Source of the DNA: Pseudomonadota bacterium
GTDB taxonomy: Bacteria; Pseudomonadota; Gammaproteobacteria; Steroidobacterales; Steroidobacteraceae
NCBI GenBank assembly: GCA_021805865.1
Contig: JAJZDX010000001.1
Span: 151,588 to 215,587 of the forward strand
Length of the DNA: 64,000 bases
Direction of reading: 5' to 3'
Shown here: piece after piece, positions 53,695-62,912 of the stretch
How the letters are laid out: every line of letters begins with the position of its first letter
How positions within the stretch are numbered: the stretch's first letter is position 1
Notes under the pieces: model-generated
Databases searched by the model: none
Seen by the model: the letters and a program-made list of their open reading frames with translations, nothing else
What the model was told of the DNA's origin: nothing
Position numbers and translations under genes: made by a program

Positions 53695-54645
53695 ATGGGC
53701 GCCCCGGAATTCGCCGCCATCCTGCCCGATCTGCACATGCTGACGGTGATCGCAGAGACTCGCAGCCTCACCCAGACGGCCCGGCGGCTCGGCGTGGCCA
53801 AATCCTCGGTCAGCATGCGCCTGAAGGACCTGGAGCGCGCACTGGGCATGCCGCTCGTGCGCCGCACCACCCGCTCGATCACCCTGACAGCCGCCGGGCA
53901 GCAGCTGGTGGGCGAGACGCGCGGCTCGTTCGCCCACATCGAGCAGGGGGTATGCGGCGTGAAAGACCTCGCCGGGGCGCCGCGCGGACTCGTACGGGTG
54001 AGCGCGCCGGTGGCGCTGGGGCGTCAGCACGTTGCGCCCGCCATCCCGGCACTGCTGATGCGCTATCCCGACATCCGCCTGGAGCTCGATCTGACCGACC
54101 GGTTCGTCAACCTCGTGCAGGAGGGGTTCGACCTCGCCATTCGCCACGCCAGCCGCGTGCCCGACTCGCACATCGCCACGCCGCTGTGCGAGTCGCATTC
54201 CGTGCTGTTGGCGAGCCCGGATTACCTCGCGCGCCGCGGCATGCCCGGGCACCCGGCGCAGCTCACGCGCCACGAGTGTCTGCTCTACCTGCGCGATGGC
54301 ACACCCAGCTGGTCATTCGAGCGCACCGCGAGCCGCAGGCGCGTGGAGCGTGTGAGCGTGCCGGTGCGTGGACCTCTGAAGGCCAACAACAGCGAGGTGC
54401 TGCGCGATGCGGTCTTCGGCGGACTCGGCATCGGCATGCTGCCGGACTTCACCGCCTGGAGCGGTGCGGCCTCGAAGACCCTGGTGCAGGTGCTGCCCGA
54501 CTGGAGGCCGGTGGGCTTCTTCGGCGAGCGGCTGCAGGTCATACGCCCATGGGCTCCCCGCACCCCGCGCGCCGTGCAGTGCGTGATCGATCACTTGCGC
54601 GCGGTGCTGGGCGGAGGATTCAGCCGGTCAACGCTTGATCCGTGA
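53695..54645 (+). CDS. LysR-family transcriptional regulator
   Basis: 316 aa. Winged HTH (TVIAETRSLTQTARRLGVAK, SSVSMRLKDLERALGMPLV) and a periplasmic-binding-like effector domain (LPDFTAWSGAASKTLVQVL at the end). I use ATG 53695 because GGAGG sits six bases upstream. The first ATG, 53689, directly abuts that site. It is divergent from mmsA (114 bp gap) and may regulate it. The final 18 bp overlap the argH end (convergent). Confidence 0.88.
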   Translation: MGAPEFAAILPDLHMLTVIAETRSLTQTARRLGVAKSSVSMRLKDLERALGMPLVRRTTRSITLTAAGQQLVGETRGSFAHIEQGVCGVKDLAGAPRGLVRVSAPVALGRQHVAPAIPALLMRYPDIRLELDLTDRFVNLVQEGFDLAIRHASRVPDSHIATPLCESHSVLLASPDYLARRGMPGHPAQLTRHECLLYLRDGTPSWSFERTASRRRVERVSVPVRGPLKANNSEVLRDAVFGGLGIGMLPDFTAWSGAASKTLVQVLPDWRPVGFFGERLQVIRPWAPRTPRAVQCVIDHLRAVLGGGFSRSTLDP

Positions 54646-55845
54646 TGGATCGCTCTCCAGCCCCTTCAGCCTCGCCGCCACGCGCCGATAAGCCTCGCGG
54701 AAAGGGACGCCCTCGCTCACGACCAGGCGATTGGCTTCCTCTGCGGCGTGAATGGCCGGGTCGAGCGCGATCCGGCCGGGGCGGAATTTCATGGCATCGA
54801 GGGCGGCAGGCAGGAGGCCGAGGGTTTGCTGCGCGATGTCGATGCTGCGGAACAGGGGGAACTTCAACAGCTGCAGATCTCGCTGATAGCCCGAAGGGAG
54901 CTTCGCGCAGATCGCCAGCGCCTCGGCAAGACAGGCCTGCGCCGTGGCCGAGCGGCCACGGATCAGCTCGAAGAGATCCGGATTGCGCTTCTGCGGCATG
55001 ATCGAGGAGCCGGTGGTGAACGCCTCCGGCAGCTCGAGAAAGCCGAATTCCTGGGTATAGAAGAGCAGCACGTCGGCCGCCAGGCGCCCGAGATCCTGCA
55101 TCAGCAGTGTGATTGCGAACAGCAGCTCGGCCTCCGCCTTGCCGCGGGAGAGCTGCACGGCCGTCACCGGCTCCTGCACCGCCGCAAAGCCGAGCTTGCG
55201 CCGGGTCGACTCCCGATCGAGCGGCAATCCCGGCGTGCCATAGCCGGCCGCCGAGCCCAAGGGGCTGCGGCCGAGGCGACGCTCGACCTGGCGCAATCCT
55301 TCCGCATCGTCGCGCACCTCGGCGGCGAAGCCGCCCGCCCATAGCGACACCGAGCTCGGCATGGCCTGCTGCATGTGGGTGTAGCCGGGCAGGGTCGTGT
55401 CGCGCTCGCGCCCGGCGAGACGTTCCAACGCCTCTGCCACCGCAAGCGCGCCCTTGACCAGCTCCTCGACCGCATCGCGCAGATACAGCCGTAATGCCGT
55501 CAGCACCTGATCGTTGCGGGACCGCCCCAGGTGCACCCGGCCGCCGGCCGCTCCGATCCGCTCGGTCAGGCGCCGCTCGAGAGCGGTCTGGCCGTCCTCG
55601 TCCTTAAGCTCGATCTGCCAGAGACCGCGGGCGTGCTCGTCGGCGAGAGCGGTCAAACCGGCGCAAATCGCCTCGAGATCCGCGTCCGACAGGAGCCCCT
55701 GGTCGCGCAGCATCTGCGCATGCGCGATCGACGCCCGCACGTCATAGCGCACAAGGCGCTCATCCAGAGCATAGTCCTCCCCGGCGGTGTAGCTCAGCAC
55801 CCGCTCATCGAGCGGCGCACCCTTGTCCCACAGTCGCGTCATCAT
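54628..55845 (-). CDS. argH: Argininosuccinate lyase
   Basis: 405 aa fumarase/aspartase-superfamily lyase releasing fumarate and arginine. It has VHLGRSRNDQVLTALRLYLR, TTLPGYTHMQQAMPSSVSL, and the signature GSSIMPQKRNPDLFELI. Somewhat shorter than typical ArgH (430-470 aa), chiefly at the C-terminus. The start overlaps the argB stop (TGATG); ATG 55842 is the alternative. Last gene of the operon. Confidence 0.92.
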   Translation of the reverse strand: MMTRLWDKGAPLDERVLSYTAGEDYALDERLVRYDVRASIAHAQMLRDQGLLSDADLEAICAGLTALADEHARGLWQIELKDEDGQTALERRLTERIGAAGGRVHLGRSRNDQVLTALRLYLRDAVEELVKGALAVAEALERLAGRERDTTLPGYTHMQQAMPSSVSLWAGGFAAEVRDDAEGLRQVERRLGRSPLGSAAGYGTPGLPLDRESTRRKLGFAAVQEPVTAVQLSRGKAEAELLFAITLLMQDLGRLAADVLLFYTQEFGFLELPEAFTTGSSIMPQKRNPDLFELIRGRSATAQACLAEALAICAKLPSGYQRDLQLLKFPLFRSIDIAQQTLGLLPAALDAMKFRPGRIALDPAIHAAEEANRLVVSEGVPFREAYRRVAARLKGLESDPSRIKR

Positions 55846-56780
55846 CAAGCCTGCGCGCTCTGCTCCGCCGGCGTGAGCGCGTTGACATCCTCCACGATCA
55901 GCGTGCCCGTGCCCTCGTTGGTGAACACCTCGCCCAGGATCCCCTCCGGCGCACTGTATGACACGACGTGCACCCGCCGCACCCCGCCACGGATTGCCGT
56001 CTCGATGGCCTTGGCCTTCGGCAGCATCCCGTCTGCGATACGGCCTTCCTCGCGCAGGCGCGCAAGGCCGCCCAGGTCCGTATAGGAAATGAGCGACCCC
56101 GGATCGCCGAGCTCCGCCAGGATGCCGGGGGCCCCGGTGCACAGGATCAGCTTCTCGGCCCCGAGCGCCGAGGCGATGGCGGCGGCCACCGTGTCGGCGT
56201 TGATGTTGAGCAGCGTGCCGCTGTCGTCCGCCGAGAGGGGGCTCACCACCGGCATCAGTCCGTTGTCGAGGAGCTTGCGCAGCACCGTGGGATCGACCTG
56301 GTCGATGTCGCCGACGAAGCCGTAGTCCACCATCTCGCCGCTCGATTCCACCTTCACCGGGGGACGCTTGTGCGCGCGCACCAGACCCGCATCGACGCCG
56401 CTCACGCCGACCGCCTCGATGTTCAGCTCGCGGCAGATGCCGAGGATGCTGGTGTTGATGGTACCGTTGAGCACCATGGCCGTCACGTCGATCGACTGCC
56501 GGTCGGTGACGCGCCTGCCCTCCACCATGCGCGTGGCGACCCCGAGCGCCCCGGCCAGCTCGGTGAGCTGCGGCCCGCCGCCGTGCACGAACACGACGCG
56601 CACGCCGAAGTAGTGCAGGATGGCAAGCTGCTCGATGAGCACGCGGGTGGAGTCCTCATCGGCGAACACCCCGCCGCCGGCTTTCACCACGAAGATCTTG
56701 CCGCGATACATGCGGATATAGGGCGCGGCGTTCTTGAGCGCGCGGATGGCGAGTGCCTGATCGCCTGAGTGCATGATCAT
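55845..56780 (-). CDS. argB: Acetylglutamate kinase
   Basis: 311 aa amino-acid kinase. KIFVVKAGGGVFADED is the P-loop-like start, VVFVHGGGPQLTELAGALGV the substrate loop, AMVLNGTINTSILGI, AVGVSGVDAGLV and LLNINADTVAAAIASAL. It phosphorylates N-acyl-glutamate. It is not fused to an acetyltransferase domain, unlike the ArgAB fusion of some xanthomonads. It lies six bases after argF'. Whether the acyl group is acetyl or succinyl is not decided by this sequence. Confidence 0.9.
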   Translation of the reverse strand: MIMHSGDQALAIRALKNAAPYIRMYRGKIFVVKAGGGVFADEDSTRVLIEQLAILHYFGVRVVFVHGGGPQLTELAGALGVATRMVEGRRVTDRQSIDVTAMVLNGTINTSILGICRELNIEAVGVSGVDAGLVRAHKRPPVKVESSGEMVDYGFVGDIDQVDPTVLRKLLDNGLMPVVSPLSADDSGTLLNINADTVAAAIASALGAEKLILCTGAPGILAELGDPGSLISYTDLGGLARLREEGRIADGMLPKAKAIETAIRGGVRRVHVVSYSAPEGILGEVFTNEGTGTLIVEDVNALTPAEQSAQA

Positions 56781-56786
56781 GTCGAG

Positions 56787-57788
56787 TCAAATCCCCTTCA
56801 GTAATCGATACAACACCGCCATCTGCGCCGTCAGGCGATTGTACGCCTCGAGCTGCACGATGCTGCGGGCGCTGTCGAGCACCTCGTCGGCGACGGCGAC
56901 GTTGCGCCGCACGGGCAAGCAGTGCATCAGGCGGCAATCGGGGGCGGTGCGGCTGAACCAGTCGTTGCGTACGCACCAGCCGGTGAGACGGGCACGCAGT
57001 GCGGCATCGGCCTCGGCGTCGCCGTAACACGACGTCGCGCCCCACTCCTTCGCATAGAGGATGTGTGCGCCGGAGAGCGCCTCGTCCCGCTCGTCCGTCT
57101 CGCGCACCGATCCTCCCGACAACCCGGCCGCGTGGCGCGCTTTGTCCATGAGCGGCTTCGGCAGGGCGAACCCTTCCGGCCGCAGCACCACGACCTCCAT
57201 GCCGCGCAGCGCCGCCATGTGCAGTGCCGCCGCCGGCACCGCGAGCGGCAGCGGACGCGGATGGTATGCCCAGGAGAGAACGAACCGGCCGCCGCGCGGC
57301 ACGCCCAGATCGTCCATCGTCTTCCAGTCGGCGAGCGCCTGGCAGGGATGGTTGACGGCGGACTCGAGGTTGATCAGCGGCTTCCCGATGAGCTCCGCCA
57401 TGGCGTTGAATCTCGATTCGGCGAGGTCCGCCCCGAGATCCTTGCCGTCCGCGAAGGCCCGGATCCCGAGCGCGTCGCAGTAGGAGGCGAGCACCGGAAT
57501 CCCCTCACGCACATGCTCGGCCGCCGCCCCGTCCATGACCGCGCCGAGCCTCGTCTCGAGCTGCCATGTCCCCTGGCCGGGCGTGATGACGAAGGAGCTG
57601 CCTCCGAGCCGCGCCATGCCCGCCTGGAAGGAGGCCAGGGTGCGCAGCGAGGGATTGAGAAACAGCAGCCCGAGGATTCTGCCGGAGAGCGCGTGCGGCT
57701 CCGGAGAGCGCGTCAGCCGCCGCGCCAGCTCGAGCAACGAGATGACTTCTTCGCGCGTGAGATCCGCCAGGTCGAGGAAGCGTTTCAT
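56787..57788 (-). CDS. N-acylornithine carbamoyltransferase (AOTCase/SOTCase class)
   Basis: 333 aa. Carbamoyl-phosphate site FLNPSLRTLASFQAGMARLG (not the OTCase F-x-x-x-STRTR), GTWQLE near 73-78 with the class-specific Trp, VMDGAAAEH at 85-92, NHPCQALADW, YHPRPLPLAVPAAAL and HCLPVRRNVAVADEV. These mark the acetyl-/succinyl-ornithine class rather than ordinary ornithine carbamoyltransferase. The residue at 90, known in this class to choose the acyl group (Glu in Xanthomonas AOTCase, Pro in Bacteroides SOTCase), is Ala. The carboxylated Lys of AOTCase in HCLPLRRNVK is also Ala. The product would be N-acylcitrulline. Confidence 0.85.
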   Translation of the reverse strand: MKRFLDLADLTREEVISLLELARRLTRSPEPHALSGRILGLLFLNPSLRTLASFQAGMARLGGSSFVITPGQGTWQLETRLGAVMDGAAAEHVREGIPVLASYCDALGIRAFADGKDLGADLAESRFNAMAELIGKPLINLESAVNHPCQALADWKTMDDLGVPRGGRFVLSWAYHPRPLPLAVPAAALHMAALRGMEVVVLRPEGFALPKPLMDKARHAAGLSGGSVRETDERDEALSGAHILYAKEWGATSCYGDAEADAALRARLTGWCVRNDWFSRTAPDCRLMHCLPVRRNVAVADEVLDSARSIVQLEAYNRLTAQMAVLYRLLKGI

Positions 57789-58939
57789 AGGCCCGACAGC
57801 GCGTCCCGCAGCAGATCGACATGCTCCTCCTTCAGGATGAAGGGCGGCAAAAGGCGCACGACGTTCGGATCGCTCGCGCCGCCCGCGAGGATGCCGCGCT
57901 GCAGCAACTGCGCCTGGACCTGTTTGGCCGGGCGGCTGGTGCGCAGCCCCAGCAGGAAGCCCTCGCCCTGGGTGGCCGTGACCGGGCCGACCACGCAAGT
58001 CTTGCGGATGTAGGCCGAGACCCTGCGGATGTTCTCGAGCAGTCCCTCCGACTCGATGGCCTCGAGGGCGGCGAGCACGGTGGCACAGGCCATTGGACCG
58101 CCGCCGTAGGTCGTGCCGAGCAGCCCCACCTTCAGGGTGGCGGACACTTTGGCCGAGGTGAGCAGCGCCGCCACGGGGAAGCCGTTGCCGAGCGCTTTCG
58201 CAGTCGTGATCATGTCGGGCACCACGCCGTACAGGGTGGCGGCAAAGGGCGCGCCGATCCGGCCGAAGCCGCACTGGACCTCGTCGAAAATCAACAGCGC
58301 GCCGACCTGCCCGCAGCGCCGGCGCAGCGCCGCCAGGTACTCGGCACCGAGGTCCACCGCGCCCGCGAGACCCTGTACGGGCTCGACGATCACCGCCGCG
58401 GTGCGCTCGGTCACCTGAGCCTCGACGGCTGCCAGATCCCCCCGCGGCATGAAACTGACTTCGAAGGGCTTGCGCGGAAAGCCATACCACGCCTCGGAGC
58501 CCCAGGTGACGGCCGAGGCCGCCGCAGTGCGTCCATGGAATGCCCCTTCGACGGCAGCCACGTGAGTCCGTGAAGTCATGCGCAGCGCCAGACGCAACGC
58601 GTTCTCGTTGGCTTCGGCGCCGGTGCTGACCAGGAACACGCTGGCGAGATCCAGCCCGGAGAAATCGAGCAGGCGCCGCGCGGCGCGCGCGCGGATCGGC
58701 ATCGGCAGGGCGTTGGTCTGGAACTGGCACGCGCGCGCTTGGGCGATGAGCGCCTCCGTCCAGCCGCGGTGGCCGTAGCCGAGCGCCGCCACGGCGTGAC
58801 CGCCGTACAGATCGAGCACGCGCTCGCCTCCGGCGCCCATCAGCCAGACACCCTCGGCGGATGCAACCTCGAAGGGATATTGGGCATAGACCGGTGCAAG
58901 GCCGTCGGGCGGCGTCGCGGGAAGCGCGGTGGCGTTCAT
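57785..58939 (-). CDS. argD: Acetylornithine/succinylornithine aminotransferase
   Basis: 384 aa class-III PLP aminotransferase. VFLVSTGAEANENALRLAL, VAAVEGAFHGRTAAASA, LLIFDEVQCGFGRIG and the PLP Lys in TTAKALGNGFPVAAL, then LLGTTYGGGPMACAT. It makes N-acylornithine from the semialdehyde. Stop overlaps the argF' start by ATGA. The open frame above 58939 lies inside argC and is not used. Confidence 0.92.
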   Translation of the reverse strand: MNATALPATPPDGLAPVYAQYPFEVASAEGVWLMGAGGERVLDLYGGHAVAALGYGHRGWTEALIAQARACQFQTNALPMPIRARAARRLLDFSGLDLASVFLVSTGAEANENALRLALRMTSRTHVAAVEGAFHGRTAAASAVTWGSEAWYGFPRKPFEVSFMPRGDLAAVEAQVTERTAAVIVEPVQGLAGAVDLGAEYLAALRRRCGQVGALLIFDEVQCGFGRIGAPFAATLYGVVPDMITTAKALGNGFPVAALLTSAKVSATLKVGLLGTTYGGGPMACATVLAALEAIESEGLLENIRRVSAYIRKTCVVGPVTATQGEGFLLGLRTSRPAKQVQAQLLQRGILAGGASDPNVVRLLPPFILKEEHVDLLRDALSGL

Positions 58940-58962
58940 GGTATCTCGCTGATGGGAGCTGT

Positions 58963-60093
58963 TCAGGTCCAACCCGGTGCGGGCGCCGTGAGCCCTTCGG
59001 TTTCGGGCAATCCCAGCATCCGGTTCATCCACTGCACGGCGCCGCCGGCCGCGCCCTTGTTCAGGTTGTCGATGGCGCACATCACGGCCACCGTGCGACC
59101 GTTGGATGCGGCGGACAGATGCGCGTAGTTGGTGGTGGCGACGTCCTTCACCCGGGGCGCGGTGCCGCTGACCCGCACGAACGGCGAGCGGGCGTAGAAC
59201 TCGCGCAGCGCCGCCAGCACACCCGCCGTGTCCAGCGGCCTCGCCAGCTGCGCCTGCACGGTCACGTGAATGCCCCGTGCAAAGGGCCCCGAGTGGGGCA
59301 CGAAGGCGAACTCCGCCTCCACGCCGCTCGCCGCCCGCGCACAGGCCGTGATCTCGGGCGCGTGGCGGTGCGTCAACACGTTGTAGGCGTACAGGTCGCT
59401 GTGCCGCAGCGGATGATGGGTGCCGGAGACCGGCTTGCGGCCCGAGCCGGTGCTGCCGGTGACGCCCGAGACGAAGAGTGCGGGCACGGCAAGCTCCATC
59501 GAGAGCAGCGGCACGCTCGCCAGCAGCGTCGCGGTCGAAAAGCAGCCGGGATGGGCGACGTGGGCGGTCTCGAGCTTCGCCAGGTGCTCCGGCACCGCGC
59601 AGGTGAACTCCTTCAGGCGCGCCGGCGCGCCATGCGGATGCTTGTACACCCTCTCGTAGTCCGCCGCGGATCGGAAGCGGAAATCCGCGGAGATATCGAC
59701 GACGCGCGGCCGCGTGCCGGTGCTCGCTGCGCCCGTCAGAAGCGAGTCGATCAGCTGTGCGGATACGCCGTGCGGGGCGGCGGAGAACACCGCGCACTGC
59801 GGAGCGTGGGCGAGAAGCCCCTGCACTTCGGCCTGCGGCTTGAAGCGGGTGTCGCCGTAGACGGCCGCGAGGTGGGGGAAAGCGTCGGCGAGCGGCTCAC
59901 CCGGCTGGCTGTCCGACATCACCGCGGCCAGCGTGAGGCGCGGATGGGCCGCGATCAGGCGCAGCAGCTCCCCGGCCACGTAGCCGGTGCCGCCGAGCAC
60001 GACCGCCGCAATGGCGTTGCGGGGCTCCGCTCCTGCGCCTCGCCCCTCGGGCCGGCTGCCGCCCTCCGGAGTCGCTTCACGCGATTCTGTCAT
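58963..60093 (-). CDS. argC: N-acetyl-gamma-glutamyl-phosphate reductase
   Basis: 376 aa. NADP-binding VVLGGTGYVAGELLRLIAAH, catalytic Cys in HVAHPGCFSTATLLAS, and SGVTGSTGSGRKPVS with SAASNGRTVAVMCAIDNLN. Reduces N-acyl-glutamyl phosphate. The N-terminal ~25 residues before the Rossmann fold are a Gly/Arg/Pro-rich extension. ATG 60093 overlaps the stop of the upstream P-loop gene (ATGA). Confidence 0.93.
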   Translation of the reverse strand: MTESREATPEGGSRPEGRGAGAEPRNAIAAVVLGGTGYVAGELLRLIAAHPRLTLAAVMSDSQPGEPLADAFPHLAAVYGDTRFKPQAEVQGLLAHAPQCAVFSAAPHGVSAQLIDSLLTGAASTGTRPRVVDISADFRFRSAADYERVYKHPHGAPARLKEFTCAVPEHLAKLETAHVAHPGCFSTATLLASVPLLSMELAVPALFVSGVTGSTGSGRKPVSGTHHPLRHSDLYAYNVLTHRHAPEITACARAASGVEAEFAFVPHSGPFARGIHVTVQAQLARPLDTAGVLAALREFYARSPFVRVSGTAPRVKDVATTNYAHLSAASNGRTVAVMCAIDNLNKGAAGGAVQWMNRMLGLPETEGLTAPAPGWT

Positions 60094-61166
60094 GGAGCCG
60101 CTCCCCGCGGCAGGCCCACGGCCTCCATCACTCGGTCGCCGAGCGCCGCGCCGTCGCTGATGGCGTTGAATGCGGCGACGCCCAGTTGGCTGGTGATCAG
60201 GTCGATCCCCACCTGGTTGTCGGTAGCGGGCCCGGTGACGACGCAGGGCTCGATGCCGAAGCGCTCGCGCAGCAGCTTCACGCCACCCCAGGCCGCGACC
60301 GGATCGTTGGCGGAGAGGGCCACGCCGGTGAGCGCAGCGCGAATGTCCGGGCATTCCAGGATCGCGTCCACCCCGTAGGTGCCGAGAATGCCGTCACCGA
60401 GCTCGAACACGATCGCGTCCGGCTTGCCGGCCGAGAGCTCGGTCAGCATGGCGCGCGTCAGCGCCGGACCATTGTGCCTCGTGGTGGTGACCACGCCGAA
60501 GTCGGTGAAGATCGCCGAGCGGCGCGCGCCGGCATCTTCCATGGCGAGGATGTCGCGCCGAAGGGAGACTCCCGTCGCCTTGAACGCGTCGATGGTGAGC
60601 CCACGGTGGCGCATGCGGCTGATCATGGCGCAGGCGGCCGCGGTCTTGCCCGCCTCCATGCACGTGCCGGCGAGCGCCACCACCGGCACTTGCCGCACAT
60701 CGAGCACGCCGGGCTGCTCGAGCTTGCGCAGGCCCACCCGGGCCGGCACCCCGATGCGCTCGCCGAGGTACGGGAAATGCAGCGCCACGCCGAGCACGCG
60801 GCAATCGAACGGCTGGCCCTTCTCGGGATTGACCGAGTCGCACGCTCCGAGCACTCCGCCGATGTTGAGCATCTGGATCACATCGCCGGGCTTGACCGAG
60901 GCGGGGATGTGGCCGGAGTAGCCGAACAGCGCCTTGCGGTGACCGAGGGCTCCGACCACGATGTCTCCCTTGCCGACCTTGGCCATGCGCCCGCTGGTGA
61001 GCTCCAGGGTGTTGTAGGTGGACTTGTTGGTCAACACCTCGACCACAATCACCACGCCCTCCTCGGCGGGGATGTCGGGGGAGATGCGCACCTCGTGCGA
61101 AAGGCGGCAGGCCTGGGCCACGGAGGCGATCTTGTCGACGACGACGCTTCTCATGCCGCTGTTCAT
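60090..61166 (-). CDS. P-loop protein of unknown function inside the arginine operon
   Basis: 358 aa. Residues ~1-155 form a beta-rich N-terminal region (VVIVVEVLTNKSTYNTLELT, GDIVVGALGHRKALFGYSGH). Residues ~160-350 form a P-loop NTPase core with VVALAGTCMEAGKTAAACAM (Walker A G-T-x4-G-K-T). DAFKATGVSLRRDILAMEDA and FELGDGILGTYGVD follow. The fold resembles BioD/DUF1611-like ATP-dependent ligases or kinases. It is coupled by ATGA overlaps to argG before and argC after, so its function should be tied to arginine. I do not recognise an arginine enzyme. Confidence 0.7.
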   Translation of the reverse strand: MNSGMRSVVVDKIASVAQACRLSHEVRISPDIPAEEGVVIVVEVLTNKSTYNTLELTSGRMAKVGKGDIVVGALGHRKALFGYSGHIPASVKPGDVIQMLNIGGVLGACDSVNPEKGQPFDCRVLGVALHFPYLGERIGVPARVGLRKLEQPGVLDVRQVPVVALAGTCMEAGKTAAACAMISRMRHRGLTIDAFKATGVSLRRDILAMEDAGARRSAIFTDFGVVTTTRHNGPALTRAMLTELSAGKPDAIVFELGDGILGTYGVDAILECPDIRAALTGVALSANDPVAAWGGVKLLRERFGIEPCVVTGPATDNQVGIDLITSQLGVAAFNAISDGAALGDRVMEAVGLPRGAAP

Positions 61167-62389
61167 TTCGAGCTCTCGCCGGCCCGCCGGTGGAACACGC
61201 CCGTCAAGGCGACGATCTTGGAGAACCCGAGGGCGTCCTGCGGCGTCCACTCGCCGGCCGCCTCGCCGTACACACCCCTGGAGGCGGCCATGAGCGAGTG
61301 GGGCGAGTCCACGCCCTCGACGAACAGGTTCCCCGGGCGGAACGACACCCGGACCTCGCCCGTGACACGCTCCTGGGAGGACTGAAGGAGCGATTCGATG
61401 TCGCGGCAGACCGGATCGAGCAGCTGGCCCTCGTGCACCAGATCGCCGTAGGGCTGGGCGACCAGCTCCTTGATGCGCTGCTGGCGGCCGGTGAGCACGA
61501 GCTTTTCCAACTCGCGGTGAGCGGTGAGCAGCACCTCCGCGGCCGGCGCCTCGAACGCCACCCGGCCCTTGGTGCCGATGATGGTATCCCCCAGATGAAT
61601 GCCGCGCCCGAGGCCGAAGGGCGCCGCCAGCGCCTCCAGCGCCTCGATCAACGCCACCGGGGAGAGCGGCCGGCCGTCGAGACCGCTCGGCCGGCCGCGC
61701 TCGAACCGGATGACGTGCGTTTCAGGGGTGCGCGGCTTCGTAAACGCATCCTTCGTCAGCACCCATGCATGCTCCGGGATGGTGCCGGAGGAGGTGAGGG
61801 TCTCCTTGCCGCCGATGGTCACGCCCCACAGGCCGCGGTTGACCGAGTAGGCCGCCCCATAGGGCGGCACGGGCAGGCCGCGCTCCTCGAGGTACGCGAG
61901 CTCCTCCTGGCGCTTGAATGCGTGGTCGCGCACCGGGGCAAGGACCTCGAGCTCGGGGGCCAGCGTGCGCATTGCAACCTCGAAGCGCACCTGGTCGTTG
62001 CCTGCGGCTGTGCAGCCATGGGCGATCATGCTGGTGCCGAGCTTGCGTGCCATGTGCGCGATGGTCTGCGCCTGCATGACGCGCTCGGCCCCGACGCACA
62101 GCGGATAGAGCTGGCCGCGCCTGACGTTGCCCATGATCAGGAATCGCAGCACTTGCTCGAAGTAATCGGCACGCGCATCGACTTGGTGGTGCTCGAGCGC
62201 GCCGAGCGCCCGGGCGCGCTCGCCGAGCGTGCGCGCGGCCGCCTCGTCGATACCCCCGGTGTCGACGGTGACGGTGATGATCTGACGGCCATAGGTGTCC
62301 TTCAGCCACGGCACCAGGAAAGAAGTGTCGAGGCCGCCGGAATAGGCGAGAACGATGGGCTGCCCGCCCTGGGATGCGGATGTCGGCAT
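61163..62389 (-). CDS. argG: Argininosuccinate synthase
   Basis: 408 aa. ATP-pyrophosphatase loop VLAYSGGLDTSFLVPWLKD, then AHGCTAAGNDQVRFEVA and SVNRGLWGVTIGGKETLTSS. It condenses citrulline with aspartate. The short ~400-aa form with TYGRQIITVTVDTGG resembles the type found with acylornithine pathways. It follows argR by eight bases and overlaps the P-loop gene start by ATGA. Confidence 0.95.
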   Translation of the reverse strand: MPTSASQGGQPIVLAYSGGLDTSFLVPWLKDTYGRQIITVTVDTGGIDEAAARTLGERARALGALEHHQVDARADYFEQVLRFLIMGNVRRGQLYPLCVGAERVMQAQTIAHMARKLGTSMIAHGCTAAGNDQVRFEVAMRTLAPELEVLAPVRDHAFKRQEELAYLEERGLPVPPYGAAYSVNRGLWGVTIGGKETLTSSGTIPEHAWVLTKDAFTKPRTPETHVIRFERGRPSGLDGRPLSPVALIEALEALAAPFGLGRGIHLGDTIIGTKGRVAFEAPAAEVLLTAHRELEKLVLTGRQQRIKELVAQPYGDLVHEGQLLDPVCRDIESLLQSSQERVTGEVRVSFRPGNLFVEGVDSPHSLMAASRGVYGEAAGEWTPQDALGFSKIVALTGVFHRRAGESSK

Positions 62390-62397
62390 GTAAAGCC

Positions 62398-62844
62398 TTA
62401 GATGCGGAATATGGTCTGCAGCCGCGTGACGAGCTCGTCCTGCGCGCGGCCGGTGGCGGTGGCGATGAAAATCGTGTCATCGCCGGAGATGGTGCCCGCG
62501 ACTTCCGGCCACTCGGCCCGGTCGATGGCGACCGCGACGCTCTGGGCGGCGCCGATGGTGGTCTTCAGCACGGTGAGCGAAGGCCCGGCGCGCTTCAGCC
62601 CGCGCACGAACTGGGCCAGCATGTCGAAATCGCCCTGGGTGCGGGAAACCTCGTCGGGCGGCAGCACATAGCGGCCACTCGCCTTGAGCACCCCCAAGTC
62701 GCGCAGGTCGCGGCTGATGGAGGACTGGGTCACGTCACGGCCCTCCGCGCGCAGCAGACGAACGAGGTCCTCCTGGCGATGGACCACGCCCTCGCGCAGG
62801 AGGCGCACGACGGCCTGGCGGCGTTCGAGCTGCTCGGCGTCCAC
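62398..62844 (-). CDS. argR: Arginine repressor ArgR
   Basis: 148 aa. N-terminal winged HTH (RRQAVVRLLREGVVHRQEDL, DVTQSSISRDLRDLGVLK). The C-terminal oligomerisation/arginine-binding domain contains the GDDTIFIATATGR motif. The start is GTG 62844. It is the first gene of the operon, so it should control its own and the arg genes' expression through upstream dyads. Confidence 0.94.
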   Translation of the reverse strand: MDAEQLERRQAVVRLLREGVVHRQEDLVRLLRAEGRDVTQSSISRDLRDLGVLKASGRYVLPPDEVSRTQGDFDMLAQFVRGLKRAGPSLTVLKTTIGAAQSVAVAIDRAEWPEVAGTISGDDTIFIATATGRAQDELVTRLQTIFRI

Positions 62845-62869
62845 GGGATCAGGTGGAAGGGGATATATG

Positions 62870-62912
62870 CATAAAGTTGCACATATTGTGCATATTAATT
62901 CGCAGGAGTCAA
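62870..62912. promoter_or_regulatory. Probable ArgR operator over the arg operon promoter
   Basis: TGCACATATTGTGCA (62878-62892) is a perfect 15-bp dyad, with a second AT-rich element TATGCATA nearby (62865-62873). On the minus strand a TTGACT -35 lies at 62912-62907, and a -10-like ACAATA about 17 bp further overlaps the dyad. The AT-rich, TGCA-ended dyads resemble ARG boxes. Autorepression of argR-argG-...-argH is expected. Confidence 0.6.

Follow-up and report, generated by a model that had tools for sequence, protein, structure and literature searches.

In the Bacteroidetes, arginine is made by a succinylated pathway with a succinylornithine carbamoyltransferase (SOTCase, ArgF3) and without ArgA or ArgJ, and the gap at the first step is filled by the GNAT protein ArgA2 (BT3761), encoded in the arg operon, as described in the available portions of two reports (PMC7311316, PMC9026213). 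In the xanthomonad acetylcitrulline pathway, a knotted-type acetylornithine carbamoyltransferase (AOTCase) acts before deacylation, and the cluster carries an M20 argE (NF006439) and a fusion of N-acetylglutamate synthase (NAGS) and kinase (NAGS/K). The window analyzed here, 64,000 nucleotides of a Steroidobacteraceae contig (JAJZDX010000001.1), contains an arginine operon with the order argR-argG-X-argC-argD-argF'-argB-argH, in which X encodes a P-loop protein. Like the Bacteroidetes pathway, this operon combines succinyl-type carbamoyltransferase residues with an acyl-transfer candidate gene, and neither ArgA nor ArgJ is found; however, ArgA2 is a GNAT whereas X is a P-loop protein, the phylum is different, and the X-operon carbamoyltransferase is overall closer to the xanthomonad enzyme. 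The xanthomonad pathway is present in other families of the same order and shares with the X operon a knotted-type carbamoyltransferase that would work ahead of deacylation, but its carbamoyltransferase has E/N/K where the window's has A, P and A, and neither its M20 argE nor its NAGS/K fusion occurs in the X cluster. On balance, we favor the reading that the operon directs arginine synthesis via N-succinylated intermediates with X as the first enzyme in place of a GNAT synthase, based on the observed gene content, conservation, exclusion between X and the fused GNAT synthase, and succinyl-type residues. Our confidence is moderate for the position of X at the first step and somewhat higher for the succinyl group. 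The features are as follows.

62844-54628, minus strand: operon argR-argG-X-argC-argD-argF'-argB-argH, from the sequence and family scans.
62863-62912, minus strand: putative promoter and ArgR operator region, with TTGACT and then the AT-rich palindromic GAATTAATATGCACAATATGTGCA...TTTATGCA.
62398-62844, minus strand: argR, arginine repressor, 148 residues, GTG start (PF02863, E 1.5e-18; PF01316, E 3.5e-13).
61163-62389, minus strand: argG, argininosuccinate synthase, 408 residues (TIGR00032 above cut-off).
60090-61166, minus strand: X, P-loop protein, 358 residues, proposed N-succinylglutamate synthase (no Pfam or NCBIfam cut-off reached).
58963-60093, minus strand: argC, N-acyl-gamma-glutamyl-phosphate reductase, 376 residues (TIGR01850 above cut-off).
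57785-58939, minus strand: argD, acylornithine aminotransferase, 384 residues (PF00202, E 3.9e-81; best NCBIfam model TIGR00707, below its cut-off).
56787-57788, minus strand: argF', acylornithine carbamoyltransferase, 333 residues (NF003384, 343.5 bits against a cut-off of 288).
55845-56780, minus strand: argB, acylglutamate kinase, 311 residues (TIGR00761 above cut-off).
54628-55845, minus strand: argH, argininosuccinate lyase, 405 residues (TIGR00838 above cut-off).

The gene order given in an earlier note on this stretch agrees with these results, with all eight genes on the minus strand and the expected family matches for the seven arg genes, and X, which falls below every Pfam and NCBIfam cut-off, is indeed the only unexplained member. 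The interval assigned there, 57785-62844, covers argR to argD, and the operon continues to 54628. Its junctions are exact in the sequence: ATGA overlaps join argG to X (61166-61163), X to argC (60093-60090) and argD to argF' (57788-57785), and argB and argH share one base at 55845. Gaps of 23 and 6 bases separate argC from argD and argF' from argB, respectively.

How widely is this arrangement conserved? Relatives of X were found on 317 genome-contig stretches in one scan, and the best 80 were fetched; these are mostly metagenome genomes labelled Gammaproteobacteria, Proteobacteria or Steroidobacteraceae, and include the cultured Povalibacter uvarum (NCBI order Steroidobacterales). X sits among arg genes in all 80, with few variants, some of them cut by contig ends. 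The complete eight-gene set occurs in the window's order in 53, argG precedes X in 78, and argC follows X in 78. The exceptions to argG-X-argC are contig ends (L015, L019, L081) and L071, which reads argR-X-argC-argB. Because the arrangement recurs, whole or contig-cut, in the 80 related loci fetched, it is not due to chance. Of the products encoded in the 53 full loci, X is the best conserved, with a mean identity to the window of 84.4% (argG 82.9%, argB 80.8%, argC 73.4%), a rank favored by the choice of the loci through X. The mini-cluster argR-X-argC-argB is found at L071 (9391-13129) and at L178 (5589-9239), the latter in G520, a genome of another class; no further arg gene was found in either stretch, and that of L071 ends at argB. 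G520 is the only genome besides the window's own with an X orthologue among 398 genomes of the phylum, in a search that scored at most five first-look candidates per genome and may have missed relatives. At L055 and L059, argF' comes straight after argC and no argD match lies between the two; the aminotransferase must be encoded elsewhere or be too diverged. A record titled Klebsiella pneumoniae (L064) is a metagenome genome with an X-type arg cluster whose X is 78% identical, and its species label looks wrong.

The distribution of X was compared with that of the classical first-step genes by five queries on one order-wide sample of 147 genomes. An X orthologue is present in 109 of these (in a few as two pieces), 6 have an X-like protein but no orthologue, and 32 have neither. 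The NAT domain (PF04768) of the NAGS/K fusion is present in 21 genomes, none of which has an X orthologue. A clear independent swap is seen in G137, from a family (f7) of mostly X genomes, whose cluster is instead of the acetyl type, with NAT and an M20 gene. ArgJ (PF01960) matched 10 of 14 control genomes and none of the 147, the window's own included. Classical ArgA (PRK05279-type) was above cut-off in one control and in none of the 147, where argB and scattered GNATs match weakly; five of the seven single-contig X genomes have no ArgA-model match except argB. With the argA model TIGR01890, the genome of the window (4.68 Mb in 83 contigs, 98.75% complete) yielded only the kinase half of argB and a 160-residue GNAT, both below cut-off, and the latter passes the ArsN2 cut-off (156 against 125). 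Two carbamoyltransferases of this genome are above cut-off, argF' and a protein that reads as PyrB from its sequence. Among the eight operon genes, Pfam revealed no GNAT, AA_kinase being the sole Pfam domain of argB. The NAGS models gave nothing above cut-off, ArgA2 itself not being searched for. The earlier note's observation that argA, argJ and an ordinary ornithine carbamoyltransferase are missing from the operon is matched, at these cut-offs, in the genome, and X and NAGS/K never occur together across the sample.

The argF' family is above its cut-off in 129 of the 147 genomes. There are 17 genomes with neither X nor NAT, and a good argF' is lacking in five of family f10, eight of family f13 and G125; in G042, a 3-kb contig carries an argF' of the acetyl type, and the X-type argF' of G131 is so near to where its contig starts that X would fall outside it. 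In the four acetyl-type clusters with frames listed, the order is argF'-argG-M20-NAGS/K-argC-argH, although in one of them, L181, argH was not found. The M20 proteins scanned from two of these clusters both exceed the cut-off of the acetylornithine deacetylase model NF006439, and the one NAGS/K fusion scanned exceeds that of NF003387. As a separate observation, an ArsN2-type GNAT at L088 (1435-1917) lies between aspartyl-tRNA synthetase-like and hydrolase-like genes on one side and mutS on the other, and no arsenic gene was recognised around it in that stretch.

The identity of the acyl group was approached through the specificity residues of argF'. As given in the available portion of a review of transcarbamylases, the acetyl enzyme has Glu92, Asn185 and Lys302, where the succinyl enzyme has A/S/P/V/Q, P and V/I/E (PMC4581275); the available portion of the GapMind report states that specificity is switched at a single position, where S, P, A or V favors succinyl (PMC7311316). 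When aligned to the X. campestris AOTCase, the window argF' has A90, P181 and A298. Among the 67 fetched X loci with an argF' match, 63 have A/P/A, one has A/P/V, one has A/P with the third position unread, and two are unreadable, such that A/P occupies the first two positions in 65 of 65 readable proteins. Of the 15 xanthomonad-type clusters fetched, 14 come from the 21 NAT genomes and one is the G042 fragment; 13 of them have E/N/K and two E/N/Q, with E/N in all 15. By this alignment, argF' carries succinyl-type specificity residues, strictly so at two of the three positions, which narrows the earlier assignment to an acetyl- or succinylornithine class: the acylornithine carbamoyltransferase stands, and its residues are of the succinyl rather than the acetyl type. 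Fragments aside, scores on the acetylornithine model are ~285 to 380 bits for X-type argF' proteins and ~500 to 580 for those of the xanthomonad type. The best PDB chain for argF' is 3l02, which has Ala at the first specificity position, and other chains of that enzyme have Glu, Ser or Val. An extra argF'-like protein (~227 to 262 bits) was also observed in G004, G006, G016, G021, G030, G033, G042, G053, G056 and G063, and in G063 it is the only good argF' match.

X itself consists of a beta-rich N-terminal part and a C-terminal SIMIBI-type P-loop domain that starts at about residue 154, and Pfam and NCBIfam scans found no GNAT domain in it. The fold of the C-terminal half resembles those of CTP synthase, the dethiobiotin synthetase BioD, and DgcN, the DUF1611 N-acetyltransferase of D-glutamate catabolism (PDB 7xrj). 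Similar length and a P-loop domain with GT....GK and ATG motifs are shared with DgcN; however, the best Pfam match of X, to DUF1611 (PF07755), reaches 15.1 bits against a cut-off of 25, NF041892 gave no match in the NCBIfam scan, and the neighbors of X are arg genes rather than DgcA. The best PF07755 E-value over 49 X proteins is 8.7e-4. X differs from BioD and CTP synthase in its extra N-terminal part of ~150 residues and in having no family-level sequence match to them in the Pfam and NCBIfam scans. Residues invariant over 28 X and X-like proteins are Gly167, Met170, Gly173-Lys174-Thr175, Lys196, Thr198-Gly199, Asp205, Asp222, Thr228 and Glu255, a set that fits Mg-ATP chemistry rather than plain CoA transfer.

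In the proposed pathway, X would be the catalyst, or catalytic core, of the first step, succinylating L-glutamate at its amino nitrogen in place of a GNAT-type synthase, and we infer that the donor would be succinyl-CoA or succinate plus ATP. ArgB, ArgC and ArgD would then convert N-succinylglutamate to N-succinylornithine, which argF' would carbamoylate to N-succinylcitrulline; a desuccinylase outside the operon, possibly DapE, would free citrulline, and ArgG and ArgH would complete arginine under the control of ArgR. The rationale for placing X at step 1 is that its cluster lacks both argE and a synthase domain but has X, and that argR-X-argC-argB, as in L071 and G520, would be a set for steps 1 to 3 with X in place of step 1. 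The new variant of arginine synthesis put forward in the earlier note, with X supplying a missing step, is borne out to the extent that X lies among arg genes in every fetched locus and never accompanies the fused NAGS/K. Of the three roles suggested there for X (acyl transfer, deacylation or regulation), the data favor the first acyl-transfer step, at which X would replace the synthase domain.

Which enzyme would then remove the succinyl group? No argE was found among the eight operon genes in the Pfam and NCBIfam scans, in agreement with the earlier note; the window's own genome has four M20-family matches, and of the two that were scanned, one is DapE and one an M20D amidohydrolase, neither a clear ArgE. 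An M20 search in 14 X genomes returned DapE (confirmed) and one weak match of ~40 bits in each of the single-contig genomes G029 and G070, and up to 13 M20 proteins in the others. Under the succinyl route, the cheapest explanation would be that DapE removes succinyl from N-succinylcitrulline, the alternatives being a non-M20 enzyme or transacylation by X.

Several observations weigh against this reading. The third argF' residue, Ala, is absent from both published lists. The fold match of X is equally good for CTP synthase, BioD and others, and X compared by itself with DgcN/DUF1611 reaches only 10%. No desuccinylase was identified among the M20 proteins listed. The PF04768 search, which drew a blank in the genome of the window and in all 109 X genomes, likewise matched none of the 14 control genomes, so it has no positive control there. 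The exclusion runs mostly along family lines, and since families mostly carry one type, the independent events are far fewer than the 0/109/21/17 table of X against NAT implies, and its Fisher's test value (p = 2e-15) overstates independence. Two of the seven single-contig X genomes have a second weak ArgA-model match, and the NAGS models may miss a GNAT such as ArgA2 of the Bacteroidetes, which leaves room for one that escaped notice. Finally, G100 has an X-type argF' with no X match, which a contig end does not explain.

An alternative hypothesis is that X is a P-loop N-acetylglutamate synthase and argF' a diverged acetylornithine carbamoyltransferase. In its favor, the score of argF' lies above the NCBIfam acetylornithine cut-off, and its PDB matches are stronger for AOTCase (218 bits) than for SOTCase (173 bits), therefore the succinyl assignment rests on the specificity residues; moreover, the precedent DgcN is named an acetyltransferase. 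We regard this as unlikely, given Ala and Pro in 65 of 65 readable X-cluster proteins against Glu and Asn in 15 of 15 of the xanthomonad type, and given that swapping the first specificity residue switches preference, according to the available portions of two reports (PMC7311316, PMC4581275). X could instead be a transacylase that passes the acyl group from N-acylcitrulline to glutamate, an ArgJ analogue replacing both synthase and deacylase. This would account for X clusters having neither the NAGS domain nor the M20 argE of acetyl-type clusters, and for the scarcity of M20 matches in G029 and G070, but L071 and G520 keep X beside argB and argC with no argF' nearby, the conservation of Walker A, Lys196, Asp and Glu255 points to ATP chemistry, and other X genomes have several M20 proteins, with other deacylase families outside the search; we consider it quite improbable.

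A marginally lower probability is given to X as a regulator or activator of ArgB or ArgR, with an unrecognised GNAT elsewhere making acylglutamate. P-loop proteins are often switches, and weak GNAT matches do occur in some X genomes, the window's included; however, the GNAT of the window's genome is of the ArsN2 type by cut-off, five of seven single-contig X genomes match the ArgA model only through argB, and X and the fused synthase are together in no genome. The operon does lack a deacylase, and X could in principle deacylate N-acylcitrulline while another protein serves as synthase, but SIMIBI P-loop proteins are not known as amide hydrolases and X keeps its place beside argB and argC at loci where argF' is no neighbor, which makes this role very improbable. 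Returning to X as the first enzyme, a more specific proposal that we advance only tentatively is that X is the first member of a new acylglutamate synthase class, a P-loop enzyme resembling BioD. It would either couple glutamate with succinate (or another small acid) at the expense of ATP or transfer the acyl group from acylcitrulline to glutamate, and across most of a bacterial order this one enzyme would stand in for both the deacylase and the CoA-dependent synthase of arginine synthesis.

Upstream of argR, TTTATGCA recurs in 60 of 73 regions, and TGCA-N4-8-TGCA occurs in 44 of 73; in 200 plain shuffles, which preserve base content only, the latter averages 0.6 and never exceeds 3. The corresponding regions of L010, L012 and L013 contain TGAATTATTATTCA, which we take to be the consensus of the ArgR box (ARG-box). 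Because these motifs recur, the operon is probably under ArgR control.

Weaker relatives of X (A1 profile, mostly 65 to 114 bits; 15 of some 30 fetched) form two types that share 23 to 31% identity with X. The ten type A genes (L099 to L106, L110, L113) each directly follow a gene of ~390 residues with overlapping ends, and the one such neighbor scanned, in L100, is an M20 hydrolase relative; several of these loci have a further gene of ~200 residues upstream. Type B comprises five fetched genes (L107 to L109, L111, L112), as well as L144 and the plasmid stretches L200 and L201. In three of the five loci, an adjoining gene of 554 to 607 residues reads like an ABC transporter, and an annotated ABC transporter adjoins the two plasmid relatives. 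Public annotation calls two type B genes a DUF1611 protein and a dethiobiotin synthase. A further X-like gene, at L199 (5974-7035; Priestia megaterium plasmid NZ_CP085446.1), lies in a phosphonate-like gene cluster with genes for an ornithine carbamoyltransferase, two ATP-grasp enzymes, two thiamine-diphosphate enzymes, an M20 peptidase and a PEP-mutase-family protein. Since X-like genes keep company with ligases and M20 enzymes, the forming or protecting of amide bonds is suggested as their general theme.

No earlier report of an X-type arginine step was found in the literature searched; the available portion of one report describes ArgA3 as a predicted deacetylase-like protein of acylglutamate synthesis (PMC9026213). 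Under automated annotation, these bacteria would seem to lack the start of arginine synthesis, or would be credited with the acetyl pathway. Should X prove to be the first enzyme, a step so far unrecognised is in use in most of an order, and X would be another unrelated type of acylglutamate-synthesis protein beside GNAT, ArgJ and the predicted ArgA3. The succinyl route would then extend outside the Bacteroidetes, and X would offer a first biochemical handle on its sister P-loop groups beside peptidases, transporters and a phosphonate-like gene cluster.

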